Below, piece by piece: positions 57,863 to 64,000 of a stretch of DNA of 64,000 nucleotides. A model generated the notes under the pieces. That model worked only from the letters and a program-made list of their open reading frames with translations, was not told where the DNA came from and made no database searches. Made by a program: the position numbers and the translations under genes. Location: the NCBI RefSeq assembly GCF_030409335.1, contig NZ_JAUFPN010000153.1:62001-126000 (forward strand). Reading direction: 5' to 3'. Source of the stretch: Paeniroseomonas aquatica. GTDB lineage: Bacteria; Pseudomonadota; Alphaproteobacteria; Acetobacterales; Acetobacteraceae. How positions within the stretch are numbered: position 1 is the first letter of the stretch; the number at the start of each line of letters is the position of its first letter.

Positions 57863-58834
57863 ATGAAACGCCGCCACATGCTGGGGGCCGCCGGCCTGCT
57901 ATTCGGCACGCGCCATGCCGTGGCGCAGGAGGAGTGGCCCAGCCGCCCCGTCACCATCCTGGTGCCCTTCGCCCCGGGCAGTTCCTCGGACATCATCGGC
58001 CGCGCGGTGGCCCAGGGCATGCAGCAATCCCTGGGCAAGCCCGTGGTCGCGGAGAACCGGCCGGGTGCGACCGGGGAAGTCGGGGCGCGGGCGGTGATCC
58101 GCAGCGCCCCGGATGGCCACATGCTGATGCATGCGCCGATCAGCACCTGGGCCATCAACGTCGCCCTGCGGCCGAACCTGGCCTATGACCCGGTGACGCA
58201 GCTGACCCGCATCACCCAGACGGTGCGGACCCCGAATGTGCTGGTGGTGCATCCCGGCCAGGTGCCGGCGAAATCCCTGCCAGAGCTGCTCGACTGGCTG
58301 AAGGCCAATGGCGACAAGGCGGCCTACTCGACCAGCGGCATCGGCTCCTCCGACCATCTCACCATGGAGATGTTCAAACAGGCGACCGGGACCACCGCGG
58401 CCCATGTGCCCTATGCCGGCGGGGCACCGGCGACGACCGACCTGATTGCCGGCAACGTGCAGCTGTCCTTCCAGAACCTCGGCTCGATCGCGCCGCAGAT
58501 CCGCGATGGCCGGGTGCGTCCCATCATCATCACGAGCGATGCCCGCAACCCGCTGCTGCCGGAGGTGCCGACCGCCGAGGAAAGCGGCCTCCACGACTTC
58601 GTGGTCTATTCCTGGCAGGGCTTCGGCGGGCCGGCGGGGATGCCGGCGCCGTTGGTGACCCGCATCCATGCTGCGGCGGTCGCCGCGCTGCGGGTGCCGC
58701 AGACCGAAGCGCGGCTGCGCGAGAATGGCTTCGAGGTGGTCGGCAGCAGCCCCGAGGAATTCGCCGCCTTCCAGCAGGCCGAAATCAGCCGCTGGAAGCG
58801 GGTGGTCACCCAGGGCGGGATCACCGCCGACTGA
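57863..58834 (+). CDS. Bug/TctC-family periplasmic solute-binding protein
   Basis: The 323-residue receptor has a signal peptide ending RHAVAQ, then WPSRPVTILVPFAPGSSSDIIG and GKPVVAENRPGATGEVGARAV. It differs from the two sister receptors at 29-33 kb. It diverges from the epoxide-hydrolase operon across 127 bases and likely supplies its substrate or a related acid. Its stop abuts the stop of the converging DUF393 gene with no spacer. Confidence 0.93.
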   Translation: MKRRHMLGAAGLLFGTRHAVAQEEWPSRPVTILVPFAPGSSSDIIGRAVAQGMQQSLGKPVVAENRPGATGEVGARAVIRSAPDGHMLMHAPISTWAINVALRPNLAYDPVTQLTRITQTVRTPNVLVVHPGQVPAKSLPELLDWLKANGDKAAYSTSGIGSSDHLTMEMFKQATGTTAAHVPYAGGAPATTDLIAGNVQLSFQNLGSIAPQIRDGRVRPIIITSDARNPLLPEVPTAEESGLHDFVVYSWQGFGGPAGMPAPLVTRIHAAAVAALRVPQTEARLRENGFEVVGSSPEEFAAFQQAEISRWKRVVTQGGITAD

Positions 58835-59278
58835 TCAATCGGCGATCGGCGGCCGGCCCAGGAGCTTGAGGGTCAGCCGCCGTCCGGCCACCATCGCGGG
58901 ATACAGGAATTTCCCGAGCCTCGGCCGGCTGAAGACCAGCCGGTTCAGCTTGTTGAAGGCACCATCCTCGCTGCCCAGCATGGCCAGGACATGCAGCGCA
59001 TCGGCGCCGTGGTACAGGCGCCCGTTCCACTTCACCGCCATGCCATTCTCGAGGCTGAGGCCGCGTGCCTTGACCTCGGCCACCACCGGATGGTCGGAGC
59101 GCGCATCGATCATGTGAACCTTTTCCGCCAGCTGGCGGATGCGGTAGAGCATGACGTAGCGAGTGCAGAACGGGCACAGGCCGTCATAGACCACGAAGAT
59201 TTCGCGGGCCGACGGATCCGCGGCGGACTGGCCCGTCGGGGCCGGGCGCATCGCGCCCGGCGTGGTGTCAGCGGACAT
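58835..59278 (-). CDS. DUF393 thiol-disulfide oxidoreductase
   Basis: The 147-residue thioredoxin-like protein opens its core with FVVYDGLCPFCTRYVMLY. The redox pair is CPFC (about residues 35-38), typical of the DCC/DUF393 family. FVVYDG is the strand that positions it, and DARSDHPVV follows. In many bacteria DUF393 genes sit beside HTTM membrane proteins. Here its start lies inside the last 11 bases of such a gene, so both are made together. A disulfide-handling partner of the membrane protein is inferred. Confidence 0.9.
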   Translation of the reverse strand: MSADTTPGAMRPAPTGQSAADPSAREIFVVYDGLCPFCTRYVMLYRIRQLAEKVHMIDARSDHPVVAEVKARGLSLENGMAVKWNGRLYHGADALHVLAMLGSEDGAFNKLNRLVFSRPRLGKFLYPAMVAGRRLTLKLLGRPPIAD

Positions 59279-60920
59279 CGAAGCGGTACTCGTCGCGCTT
59301 CTTCACATCCCGGACGAGCTGGCCGTCGCGGAGCGTGAGGCAGACCGACTCGACGACGTATTTATAGCCCACGATATCCTCGATGTTCAGCCGGTTGAAC
59401 TCCCGGAACATCCAGGGGTTCGGCTGCATGTGGTGAGGGTAGAAGTAGTAGAGGTTGTCGTTCTTGATATAGGGATGGCGCAGCATGAAGCTATGGGTGT
59501 CGCGTACCAGATGCTCCATGTCCTTCAGCGTCGCGCCCGTCGTCTGCACCTCGGCGGTCCTGGGGCCGCAGGAAGTGGCGTCGTGCCAGTCGTTCAGGTT
59601 CAGATTGTTGCCGCCGATGCGGAAGTTGAAGTGGCCTTCCGGCACGTAGGTGGCGGCCTGAGCGATGGTGTAGGAGTAGATCCCGTAGTAGACCTGCGGC
59701 ACCCACACGTCCCGGCCATCCCGCGTCACCGCGTAGAACTGTGGGCTGGCGAGTTTGGCGCCGTCCAGCCAACCGAGCCAGTTGGTATAGAAGATGGTGT
59801 GGCCGAACATCACGGTCAGCACGCAGACCAGCTTCATCATCGAGGTGATCTCATTCTCCTTCAGCCGCCAGGCCGAGGTGTAGATGATGAGATTGACCGC
59901 GATCCAGAAGTGGAACAATGCGCCAAGCGTCATGTAGACGCCGATGTGAAAGATATCGAACAGCAGCGTGAAGAACAGCAACCAGCGAACCCGAAGGATG
60001 GCCAGGGGGGCGAGCAGCTGCGCCGCGAGCACGAAGAAATTGAAGGCTAGGCCGAAGGTCGAAATGGTGTCCCAGCTGAACTGCAGCAGGGAGGGGAACA
60101 TGGCCAGCGGGTTGTCGCCCCGCTCCGTGCCGATGACGATGGCCGTCTGCGTTGGATTCTGCAGCAACCAGGTCCAGGGTGCAGGCCCACCCGCCATCAG
60201 CTTGGCGACGCCGGAGCAAAAGTAGTTGCCGAGATGGGCGCCGACGATGACCGCCCAGACCAGGTTGGTGGCCTTCTGCCGCAGGACATCCGGCGGCATG
60301 TCCGCCATCATGGACCTGAGGGTCGGAAACCGGTTCAGGGTCCAGTCGCTGGTGGCGACGACCGCGATGACACCCCCGAACACGGCGAAAACGCCGGCGT
60401 CGAGCATCGACAGGAAATCCGTGTCGGACACCCAGATGCCCGCGGCCGGCCCTATCAGGAGCCGAAAGGCCACATAGTAGATGAACAGCGGCATCAGGAA
60501 GATCGGCCGCCACAGCGACGCGAAGCCGGCAATGACCGCGATCAGCGCGCCCCAGCGAAAGAACAGGGTATGCTCGTTCGCTGCGCCGAAGATGATGTTG
60601 GGCGCGGGCGGTACGGGGCCAAAGGCATCGAACAGGACCTGGACCAGCACCACGACACCGATGCCGCGCAGGATGGCGCGCAGCAGGCGCGGCACGTCGG
60701 CATAGCGGACACCGACGAAAGGCAGGGCGGCGACGCAGCAGAAGACCACCAGCGCGAAGCCATGCAGCTCCGACTGGCCGGAAGCGTAGAAGGTCACCTT
60801 CTTCGCCGCACTGAAGCCGACCAGCGCCAACAACAACAGCAGGAAGGGCAAGGAGACCGCAACCGAAGGGATGCGGAGCGCCTGGGGGCGGAGCCTCGAC
60901 GAATACACCGATCTCTCCAT
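59268..60920 (-). CDS. HTTM-like polytopic membrane protein (vitamin K-dependent gamma-carboxylase related)
   Basis: The 550-residue protein has about ten to twelve membrane segments between residues 15 and 400 and a soluble C-terminal part of about 140 residues (RIGGNNLNLNDWHDATSCG, DNLYYFYPHHM, FREFNRLNIEDIV). Residues about 230-370 (AHLGNYFCSGVAKLMAGGP, FDIFHIGVYMTLGALFHFW) match the HTTM fold of gamma-carboxylase-like proteins. The catalytic carboxylase lysine and epoxidase residues cannot be confirmed. It overlaps the DUF393 gene. It is followed in the genome by glycosyltransferases, so a cell-envelope role is plausible. The ribosome site is weak. Confidence 0.82.
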   Translation of the reverse strand: MERSVYSSRLRPQALRIPSVAVSLPFLLLLLALVGFSAAKKVTFYASGQSELHGFALVVFCCVAALPFVGVRYADVPRLLRAILRGIGVVVLVQVLFDAFGPVPPAPNIIFGAANEHTLFFRWGALIAVIAGFASLWRPIFLMPLFIYYVAFRLLIGPAAGIWVSDTDFLSMLDAGVFAVFGGVIAVVATSDWTLNRFPTLRSMMADMPPDVLRQKATNLVWAVIVGAHLGNYFCSGVAKLMAGGPAPWTWLLQNPTQTAIVIGTERGDNPLAMFPSLLQFSWDTISTFGLAFNFFVLAAQLLAPLAILRVRWLLFFTLLFDIFHIGVYMTLGALFHFWIAVNLIIYTSAWRLKENEITSMMKLVCVLTVMFGHTIFYTNWLGWLDGAKLASPQFYAVTRDGRDVWVPQVYYGIYSYTIAQAATYVPEGHFNFRIGGNNLNLNDWHDATSCGPRTAEVQTTGATLKDMEHLVRDTHSFMLRHPYIKNDNLYYFYPHHMQPNPWMFREFNRLNIEDIVGYKYVVESVCLTLRDGQLVRDVKKRDEYRFDVR

Positions 60921-60955: not shown

Positions 60956-61873
60956 TCAACCCGGCCGCGATGTGTTTGGCATTAATGGACGGCCAGAGGC
61001 GACTCCGGCAAGCCAACGATCGCGATAGCGGATGCGAAGCCGCCGTGGCGAGGGCGGCAGGAATGCCAGGCCACGGGCGGCCAGGCGATAGGCAACGAGA
61101 CGGACCAACAGGCCGAGCGAAAGCGATTTGGCGTAGTTGCGGCCCTCGCCGACGCCGTACCGAAAGGCGCGATCCAAGATCCATCGCTCCTCCATCTGCT
61201 CCGGCCGGATGATGTGCCGGACCCGGGCGTCCGCCGCGAACCAGCCGCGATGGCCGGCGGTGCCGAGGCGACGCAGCAGTTCCGTCTCGCTGCCCATGGC
61301 ATACATTGGGTTTGTGCCGTCGGGGCCGACATGCTCGCCAAAGCGGGTGCCTGCCGCGAAGATGGCGCTGCGGACGGCCATGTTGGGCCCGAAGATGTCG
61401 GCATGGTCGCAGGGGCCGCTCGCCCGCCGCTGTTGCGCATAGAGCACGCTGAACTCGACGGCCTGCTCGGAGAGCCAGAGGGGAGGGGGACTCGGCCAAT
61501 CCGGCAGCACCGTGCCGCCGAAGAGATCGGCCTCCGGATGGGCATCGGCCGCTGCCCGGAGCTGCACCAGCCAGTCCGTGTCCGGCAGCACGTCGTCGTC
61601 GGTGAAGACGGCGAGGTCCCCACGAAGCTCAGGCAGTGCCAGGTTGAGGGCGCGGTTCTTGCCAGGCGTGGGACAGGACAGCAGGGTCAGCGGCAACAGG
61701 TGACTGAAGCCCGCTATTACGGCCGCGGTGCCGTCATTGCTGCCGTTGTCGACGATCACCAGCTTCCAACCGGAATGCGGGGCCGTGAGGCCCGCAAAGG
61801 CGTTCAGCACGCGCGGCAGGGCCTGTGCACGGTTGCGCGTCGAAAACACAACCGTCATCGAGGGTTCGGTCAC
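60956..61873 (-). CDS. Family-2 glycosyltransferase
   Basis: The 305-residue GT-A enzyme has TVVFSTRNRAQALPRVLNAF, IVDNGSNDGTA (nucleotide-binding Asp) and the metal-binding FTDDDVLPDTDWL. A large loop with HADIFGPNMAVRSAIF is typical of dedicated surface-glycan transferases. It starts from a GTG at 61871-61873 overlapping the stop of the upstream GT2 gene (GTGA), so the two are co-translated. No membrane segment is seen. Sugar and acceptor are unknown. Confidence 0.92.
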   Translation of the reverse strand: MTEPSMTVVFSTRNRAQALPRVLNAFAGLTAPHSGWKLVIVDNGSNDGTAAVIAGFSHLLPLTLLSCPTPGKNRALNLALPELRGDLAVFTDDDVLPDTDWLVQLRAAADAHPEADLFGGTVLPDWPSPPPLWLSEQAVEFSVLYAQQRRASGPCDHADIFGPNMAVRSAIFAAGTRFGEHVGPDGTNPMYAMGSETELLRRLGTAGHRGWFAADARVRHIIRPEQMEERWILDRAFRYGVGEGRNYAKSLSLGLLVRLVAYRLAARGLAFLPPSPRRLRIRYRDRWLAGVASGRPLMPNTSRPG

Positions 61874-62988
61874 TGCGGCGGCTCCGCGGCTTCACGGGCC
61901 CGGGCGCCGATATCGAGGGTCGGGATGACAGGCTGCCCGCCGGGTTGCAGCAGGGCCCGCCAGATCCGCTGCGGCAAGGTCCGTTTGCGTTGCTCCCCCA
62001 TCAGTGCCATGCGGGTGAAACCACGGGCATAGGCGAGACGCCAACGGAGCCCCAGAAGCACGGTGCTCTGCTTCGGCAGCAGCGAGGCTGGAAGGGTGAG
62101 GACCTCGACGATCAGGCGGCGCGGCAACTCCTTCCACACCGTCTGCGGTGCACCAAGGATGCGGCGGGTTGCAACGGCTGAGGCGCCTTGCCAATAGAGC
62201 CGGTCCAGCAGCCACTCCGGGCACATGCGGACGGCCTGGATCTGGTGGCGCACCAGGACCCGGCTGTCATACCAGGCGGAAAACCCGCGGTCCTGGAGCC
62301 GCCAACCGACCTGCACATCTTCGTCCGACAGCAACAACCTGCCGAAGCGGCCAAGCCGTTCGGCAAAGCCTCCCATCTCCAGCAACGGCTGGCGCTGGAC
62401 GACCATGTTGACGCCATAGGGCTCGAGACCGGCAGGGACCGCCGTGGTCCGGAACTCGCCGCGGCCCTCCCATTCGATGATCGAGAGAACGCCCCGGAGG
62501 TCCTGCGGCCACCAGCCCGGCAGCGGAGCCTCCCAGACCGGCAGCACCCGGCCTCCGAGCACGCCCGGCCAAGGCCGCTGTTCGGCCAGCACGCGCTGGA
62601 TCTGCTCGATCCAGTCCGGCATCGCCAGCCCGTCGTCGTCGATGTAGGCGATGAAATCCGCCGTGCTGGTTGCCGCACCGTAATTCCTGGCAGCGCTCGC
62701 GCCCGGGCGATCGATGCGCAACAGTTTTGCGTTCGGCATGGTTGCGACCAGCACGCCAAGCTCTACGTTGACATCGGCGCTGCTGCAGCTATCGACGACG
62801 ATGATATCGAAGGCGTCCAGCCCCACGGTCTGCTGCCGGAGGCTCTCCAGGCAGGAGCGGACGTAGTGGGGGCGGTTATGCGTCACGATGCAAGCGGTGA
62901 CGCTCGGTACCTGAACCAGGGTGGCCGGATCCGAGGATCGGACCGGTGCCTGGGGCATGTCGTCCTGGGTGCTCGCCGCGGTGTGCAT
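61870..62988 (-). CDS. Family-2 glycosyltransferase
   Basis: The product is about 372 residues. The GT-A core shows VTACIVTHNRPHYVRSCLESL, IVVDSCSSADVNVEL and AYIDDDGLAMPDWIEQI (metal-binding DDD). A C-terminal region (about 270-345) has helices with an RWRLAYARGFTRMALMG-type membrane-associated segment. Two ATGs, 62994 and 62988, are in frame; the second has better spacing from GGTAGG. It is co-transcribed with the following GT2 gene. A divergent HAD-UbiA gene across an AT-rich gap suggests a shared glycan pathway. Confidence 0.92.
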   Translation of the reverse strand: MHTAASTQDDMPQAPVRSSDPATLVQVPSVTACIVTHNRPHYVRSCLESLRQQTVGLDAFDIIVVDSCSSADVNVELGVLVATMPNAKLLRIDRPGASAARNYGAATSTADFIAYIDDDGLAMPDWIEQIQRVLAEQRPWPGVLGGRVLPVWEAPLPGWWPQDLRGVLSIIEWEGRGEFRTTAVPAGLEPYGVNMVVQRQPLLEMGGFAERLGRFGRLLLSDEDVQVGWRLQDRGFSAWYDSRVLVRHQIQAVRMCPEWLLDRLYWQGASAVATRRILGAPQTVWKELPRRLIVEVLTLPASLLPKQSTVLLGLRWRLAYARGFTRMALMGEQRKRTLPQRIWRALLQPGGQPVIPTLDIGARAREAAEPPQ

Positions 62989-63279
62989 TCGCATCCTACC
63001 CTGGGGGACTTGCTGTCAGAATAGTGGTCGTTGCCACAAAAACGGAAGATGTCCAGGGAACCTTGACGGGGGCGAAGCAGTCACGTTGCGTAGCGTTTTG
63101 ATATCGGACGCGCCATGACGCATAAGGTGCATCAACATAAGGTGAAAAACAACCTTTTGGTTTGCGCCCCAGCCGCCGCAATTCATTGCAAAACGCTTTC
63201 TTTCTCTCACGCCAATGGCACTATCGCAGCCCCGGACGAAATGGGATTTTGCCCTGCGGCACGAGGATCAGTTCCTGCC
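62989..63279. promoter_or_regulatory. AT-rich divergent region with direct and inverted repeats
   Basis: The stretch is markedly richer in A and T than the rest of the window. CATAAGGTG occurs at 63121-63129 and 63136-63144, 15 bases apart. AACC-TTTT-GGTT lies at about 63154-63165. They sit between the leftward GT2 gene and the rightward HAD-UbiA gene and probably include both promoters or a silencer-type binding site. No named motif is recognised. Confidence 0.45.
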
Positions 63280-64000
63280 ATGCATGCTGTAGACAAGATC
63301 AAACCATACCCTGCCGCAAGTGCTCCGCTGCCGCTTGCGGTGGACCTTGATGGCACCTTGGTCGCCACCGATACATTGCATGAGGGTCTGGTCGCGGCCT
63401 TGATGCACGCACCTACCAGTGTTCCCTCGCTGTTGCGATCGCTGCCGCAGGGGCGTGCGGCCTTCAAGCGGCGTGTCAGCCGGCAGATGCCGGCCGACGC
63501 GACCAGCCTGCCGGTGCGCCAGAATTTTCTCGACTGGCTGCGCGTGGAGCATGCGGCTGGCCGTGAGTTGCATCTGGTGACCGCGGCCGACCAGTCGATC
63601 GCCGATGCCGTGGCGGCGCATGTCGGGTTGTTCCGCAGTGCCACCGGGAGCGATGGCACCCGGAATCTGCGAAGCGAGGAGAAGGCGCAGTTCCTGCAGA
63701 ACGCCTTCCCCGGAGGCTTTGCCTATGCTGGCGACAGCCATCAGGATCTGCCGGTATTCGCAGCGGCGCAGGATATCGTCCTGGTGAATGCAAGCCCGTC
63801 GACCGCTGCTGCGGCACGGGCCATCAACCCGCGCATCATCGCAGAATTCCCGCCCCAGGCCGACCGGTTGCGGACCTGGATCGGGGCGTTGCGGATCCAT
63901 CAATGGTCCAAGAACGTCCTCGTGCTGGTGCCCCTGGCACTCGGCCACAAGCTCGGCGACCCGACCGCGATCATCCACAGCTTGTTAGGGATGCTGCTGC
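63280..64000 (+). CDS. HAD phosphatase-UbiA prenyltransferase fusion, 5' part (runs off right edge)
   Basis: At least 240 codons are present. An N-terminal HAD phosphatase shows LAVDLDGTLVATDTLHEG (motif I), a lysine in RSEEKAQFLQ and YAGDSHQDLPVFAAA (motif IV). A linker follows, then the start of a UbiA-type membrane prenyltransferase (LRTWIGALRIHQWSKNVLVLVPL). Such fusions are linked to polyprenyl-phosphate pentose synthesis: the UbiA part would make decaprenyl-phosphoryl-5-phosphoribose and the HAD part would remove the phosphate. The start ATG 63280 is chosen; an in-frame ATG at 63241 also exists. The membrane half lies outside the window. Confidence 0.88.
   Translation, partial: MHAVDKIKPYPAASAPLPLAVDLDGTLVATDTLHEGLVAALMHAPTSVPSLLRSLPQGRAAFKRRVSRQMPADATSLPVRQNFLDWLRVEHAAGRELHLVTAADQSIADAVAAHVGLFRSATGSDGTRNLRSEEKAQFLQNAFPGGFAYAGDSHQDLPVFAAAQDIVLVNASPSTAAAARAINPRIIAEFPPQADRLRTWIGALRIHQWSKNVLVLVPLALGHKLGDPTAIIHSLLGMLL

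Follow-up and report, generated by a model that had tools for sequence, protein, structure and literature searches.

Introduction

In the vitamin K cycle the membrane enzyme that is reduced by thiols is the epoxide reductase VKOR and not the carboxylase, and the carboxylases that have been characterised act on proteins. The human vitamin K-dependent gamma-carboxylase (GGCX; PF05090 and PF22777) has a cytosolic N-terminus and a lumenal C-terminus and is stabilised by a disulfide between C99 and C450 (PMC5343777). A search of openly accessible papers found nothing that links DCC proteins (DUF393) to HTTM proteins, the family to which the carboxylases belong in PF05090.

In this study we describe a DCC gene that overlaps the gene of a polytopic membrane protein in Paeniroseomonas aquatica. 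Both lie in a stretch of 64,000 nucleotides, referred to below as the window. A sequence-only reading of this DNA had proposed that the two proteins may form a redox pair. We compare the pair with its homologues in other genomes, with GGCX and VKOR, and with other DCC genes that adjoin HTTM-type genes.

Results

An overlapping gene pair

The polytopic membrane-protein gene occupies positions 59268-60908 of the minus strand and is followed on that strand by a DCC gene (58835-59278) coding for a thiol-disulfide oxidoreductase of 147 residues that lacks a signal peptide. The two genes share 11 bp (59268-59278, minus strand), ATGTCCGCTGA, which contain the stop codon of the polytopic gene as well as the DCC start. 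The sequence-only reading had placed the start of a CPFC protein within the last 11 bases of a polytopic protein of 550 residues; both open reading frames and the overlap are confirmed, while the length probably has to be revised. The polytopic frame was originally delimited at 59268-60920, which gives 550 residues from an ATG at 60920. The GTG at 60908, giving 546 residues, appears more likely to be the start, since the relatives at L007, L008 and L009 begin there behind a GGAG-like, Shine-Dalgarno-like sequence.

The DCC protein scores 39.4 bits against PF04134 in a profile search, above the curated cut-off of 27.8, and its gene is the only match to this family found in the 6.5 Mb genome. 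It shares the YDGxCPFC motif and the size of other DCC proteins and is set apart from them solely by its genomic partner. A tripartite tricarboxylate transporter receptor gene (57863-58834, plus strand) is convergent with the DCC gene, with ends that abut exactly (58834/58835), and probably has no relation to the pair.

Conservation of the pair

Homologues of the membrane protein occur at 12 further loci (13 with the window), with identities to the window protein of 21-83%. The DCC gene directly follows and overlaps the membrane-protein gene in 13 of 13 loci, and at each of them the DCC reading frame begins upstream of the membrane-gene stop codon; the overlap thus exceeds chance expectation. 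Its extent is 11 bp, with the ATG at -11 and the position kept, in all eight Acetobacteraceae loci, as compared to 14 bp in L027, 8 bp in L028 and 4 bp in L020, and it measures 26 bp in L019 and 47 bp in L014 if the first DCC start is used. The CPFC active-site motif (59165-59176, minus strand, in the window) is invariant in all 13 DCC proteins. Both the coupling of the two genes and their co-occurrence across genomes, on which the proposal of a joint role depended, are therefore borne out. A mirror-tree correlation of r 0.95 between the membrane and DCC proteins is not counted as evidence because shared ancestry alone suffices to give such a value.

The host resembles Belnapia, a Belnapia MAG (L006) being its closest named relative. 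The membrane protein is rare, being present in 4 of 299 genomes of the order, in 2 of 398 genomes of a phylum sample and in 5 of 385 genomes of a class sample, where one of the five is a protein that has no DCC partner. Extra copies were added through targeted searches beyond these samples, and the order-wide searches around G868 and around G831 covered one genome each. The plasmid and phage records searched yielded no relatives. An IMG/VR contig (L026, 4914-6970), matching L020:8841-10897, carries the pair between prophage lysis and tail genes on the strand opposite to its neighbours, an arrangement suggestive of cargo that alters the host surface.

Family assignment and predicted fold

Searches of the membrane protein against Pfam and NCBIfam models gave no family match, PF05090 gave none at E <= 1, anti-phage defence models gave none, and sequence searches of the PDB found no relative. 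Alignment with carboxylases by hhalign gave P 0.078 (10 rows) and 0.54 (13 rows), values that are not significant and do not improve on an unrelated flippase control (0.69), and hhalign comparisons with rhizobial and short HTTM sets were also not significant.

An AlphaFold2 model computed from 13 sequences reached a mean pLDDT of 88.3 and a pTM of 0.89; from five close relatives the pLDDT was 36. When the best 1000 chains by Foldseek were aligned to this model with VIA-align, the 11 top PDB rows were all GGCX, with Z values of 9.8-11.0 on a scale where about 11 is reachable by chance among helical bundles. These alignments cover 304-338 residues at an rmsd of about 8 and place model residues 10-546 onto GGCX residues 41-491; the next best structure is otopetrin (Z 8.2). 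Foldseek itself gave no PDB match at E <= 0.001, and GGCX was absent among the 50 matches listed. Judged from this model, the membrane protein likely, though not provenly, adopts the GGCX fold of a transmembrane core and a lumenal domain, and within the carboxylase fold it likely stands as a new and divergent branch. The resemblance to HTTM and gamma-carboxylase proteins noted earlier is thus upheld by the predicted fold and not by sequence.

Conserved residues of the membrane core

H225 (60234-60236), K236 (60201-60203; K240 in the 550-residue numbering), which lies 11 residues further on, and H321 (59946-59948), all encoded on the minus strand, are invariant in the 13 sequences. K236 aligns with GGCX K218, the catalytic base of that enzyme, and H321 aligns with GGCX H287. 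In the hhalign alignment to bacterial carboxylases, itself not significant, the lysine that is invariant among them is matched by K236, and their FH motif by H321. These carboxylases match GGCX at E 6e-77, so that their lysine counts as K218 and their histidine as H287, and the residue offsets K236/K218 and H321/H287 agree with the ranges of the structural alignment. In contrast, the K154/N159/H160 segment of GGCX (DKxxxxNH) has no counterpart; NH occurs in none of the 13 sequences and the likely equivalent in the window protein reads SDTDFLSM. The GGCX-specific C-terminal extension is missing as well.

Topology, soluble domain and cysteines

In all 13 sequences the loops presumed to lie on the inner side are denser in lysine and arginine. 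This bias gives an N-in/C-out topology with about 11 transmembrane helices, as in GGCX, so that the C-terminal soluble domain (residues 377-546; 59271-59780, minus strand) is predicted to be periplasmic together with both of its invariant cysteines. The sequence-only reading had regarded about 140 residues of this region as an extra; the domain instead spans about 170 residues and sits at the position of the carboxylase lumenal domain.

Each of the 13 proteins has exactly two cysteines in this domain, C447 (59568-59570, minus strand; C451 in the 550-residue numbering) and C523 (59340-59342, minus strand; C527) in the window protein. Both are invariant, they are the only invariant cysteines of the family, and they most likely form a structural disulfide. 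A distant homologue at L029 (G831; hhalign P 5e-11), a single case, has no DCC gene within 20 kb and no cysteine in its soluble part, so that both are absent there. The membrane core contains no invariant cysteine across the 13 sequences, and a VKOR-type invariant membrane CxxC was thus not found. Signal peptides are absent from the N-termini of all 13 DCC proteins, and the C-terminal end of these proteins is a basic stretch that we read as amphipathic. Lacking a signal peptide, the DCC protein is probably cytosolic, on the side of the membrane opposite to the invariant cysteines.

The envelope-glycan setting

A family 2 glycosyltransferase gene (60956-61873, minus strand) lies directly upstream of the polytopic gene and overlaps a second one (61870-62994, minus strand) by 4 bp. 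Next to these, the window breaks off within a HAD-UbiA phosphoribosyltransferase-like gene (63115-64000, plus strand). L007-L009 have retained this gene together with the glycosyltransferases. The glycosyltransferase neighbourhood that had been pointed out at this locus is therefore real, and glycan genes are also present at L014, L019 and L027. For example, L014 has the pair intact, lacks the two glycosyltransferases seen in the window and has a glycosyltransferase, a flippase and an acyltransferase next to the pair, while the neighbours in L027 are glycosyltransferases, Wzx, Wzz and polysaccharide export genes and L019 has a neighbouring glycosyltransferase. Counting L034, described below, five separate lineages (window, L014, L019, L027 and L034) have genes for glycosyltransferases, flippases or capsules as neighbours. 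Such genes are not beside every locus, as L020 is located in a prophage and the 5.6-kb contig of L028 shows none.

The region beyond the window end codes for HAD-UbiA (536 bits), DprE1-like (404 bits) and DprE2-like (164 bits) proteins, the latter two scores both being below cut-off, and a Wzx-like flippase. This series (window 63115-64000 and L011:1116-6296) suggests that Acetobacteraceae have a polyprenyl-phosphate pentose pathway, which is known from mycobacteria.

DCC genes beside other HTTM and carboxylase genes

Two true carboxylase homologues, one on Paracoccus albus plasmid p1 (WP_271073465.1) and one in G535, have a divergent DCC neighbour. They resemble the window pair in having an HTTM core, a lumenal-type domain and an adjacent DCC gene. 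Unlike the window protein, they match PF05090 at 248-257 bits, their genes diverge from the DCC genes, the coding regions in P. albus do not overlap, and the protein at L030 lacks the conserved cysteine pair.

An overlapping HTTM-DCC pair is also found in Sulfitobacter indolifex, where an HTTM gene overlaps the DCC gene by 4 bp (WP_007121460.1/WP_007121461.1 operon). This HTTM protein has only 274 residues. The operon is a three-gene unit (L038:2698-4318) that includes a protein of 155 residues containing two cysteines and a single hydrophobic stretch; going by order and length, this protein may be the soluble domain in separate form. A comparable arrangement occurs on Novosphingobium plasmid pLA5 (L034:2509-4369), where a 151-residue soluble-domain-like protein precedes a weakly similar, HTTM-like membrane protein of 207 residues (P 0.0007) whose gene is overlapped by a DCC gene, beside capsule genes. 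Eight rhizobial plasmids carry a 490-residue HTTM relative (P 1.3e-4 to carboxylases), a membrane protein outside any Pfam family, beside a convergent DCC gene (L037:3761-6047 and L044:3695-6687). However, HTTM genes on three Bacteroidota plasmids and in G352 have no DCC neighbour, and the DCC genes at L036, L039 and L040 have no HTTM neighbour. The HTTM-DCC association is thus frequent but not universal.

Discussion

The glycan neighbours, the carboxylase-like predicted fold and the overlapping DCC gene together suggest a two-part envelope-modifying enzyme. A coupled redox and modification pair is likely, and as the best explanation of the conserved, overlapping genes and the conserved residues we tentatively favour, at somewhat less than an even chance, one functional unit in which a divergent carboxylase-fold enzyme and a cytosolic DCC protein carry out the modification of an envelope glycan that is exported, or of its lipid carrier. 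The first part would be related by fold, at a distance, to the vitamin K-dependent gamma-carboxylases and would combine a membrane core that buries a lysine base with a periplasmic C-terminal domain; the second would be a DCC thiol oxidoreductase produced with it through translational coupling. The lysine would act on the glycan or carrier at the periplasmic side, probably together with oxygen and a reduced quinone as it does in carboxylases. The DCC protein would probably provide or control reducing power at the cytosolic face, affecting the redox state of a quinone or cofactor or the assembly of the enzyme, and would not pass electrons to the periplasmic cysteines. Such a unit would differ from GGCX in its translationally coupled DCC gene and its glycan neighbourhood.

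An alternative that we regard as unlikely, although it fares best among those considered, is that the target of the membrane protein is a peptide that is secreted or exported, in the manner of SdpB or linaridin HTTM proteins, and that the glycan genes are mere neighbours. The protein substrates of characterised carboxylases are in keeping with this alternative, as is a faint resemblance of the S. indolifex HTTM protein to SdpB (E 0.034). HTTM genes additionally occur in peptide clusters, crdG of the corynaridin cluster being an example (PMC9927463). However, an unsystematic look identified no precursor-peptide gene beside the pair, and the glycan genes recur across unrelated lineages. Still less probable is a DCC protein that serves only as a folding or quality-control helper without a catalytic role, for example by guarding core cysteines in the cytosol prior to insertion. 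Co-translation and a cytosolic location are compatible with such a helper, but CPFC is invariant in 13 of 13 proteins even though the core cysteines are not conserved.

Least probable is direct reduction of the cysteine pair by the DCC protein during catalysis, as thioredoxin-fold proteins reduce VKOR: the soluble-domain cysteines do accompany a DCC gene in 13 of 13 proteins and are lacking in the L029 homologue that has no DCC gene nearby, but cysteines and DCC protein are predicted on opposite sides of the membrane, the core has no invariant cysteine and hence no DsbD-like relay, and the L030 carboxylase homologue adjoins a DCC gene yet has a lumenal-type domain without cysteine. The electron path from the DCC protein to the membrane enzyme that the sequence-only reading had envisaged is thus weakened in its simplest form, which would cross the membrane without a visible relay, and direct thiol transfer is unlikely. 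The vitamin K cycle that inspired it does not offer the intended parallel, as its thiol-reduced enzyme is not the carboxylase. A membrane redox system plus a thiol protein is a likeness to VKOR and its thioredoxin-like partner in concept, whereas the membrane partner here has a predicted carboxylase fold and not a VKOR fold.

The glycan- or carrier-modifying unit may have a wider counterpart. The recurrence of DCC genes beside HTTM-type genes suggests that DCC proteins are partners of HTTM-type enzymes. It is conceivable, if doubtful at present, that several HTTM lineages share a recurrent bacterial two-part system, made up of a carboxylase-fold membrane protein and a cytosolic DCC protein dedicated to it, in which carboxylase-type strong-base redox chemistry is directed at envelope polysaccharides or lipid carriers and not at proteins. 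To our knowledge, the role of the bacterial relatives of vitamin K carboxylases is largely unknown, and we likewise know of no function for DCC proteins. The pair provides a concrete and genetically tractable test, as it is small and strictly conserved, keeps the catalytic lysine, and comes with a defined redox partner in a glycan setting.
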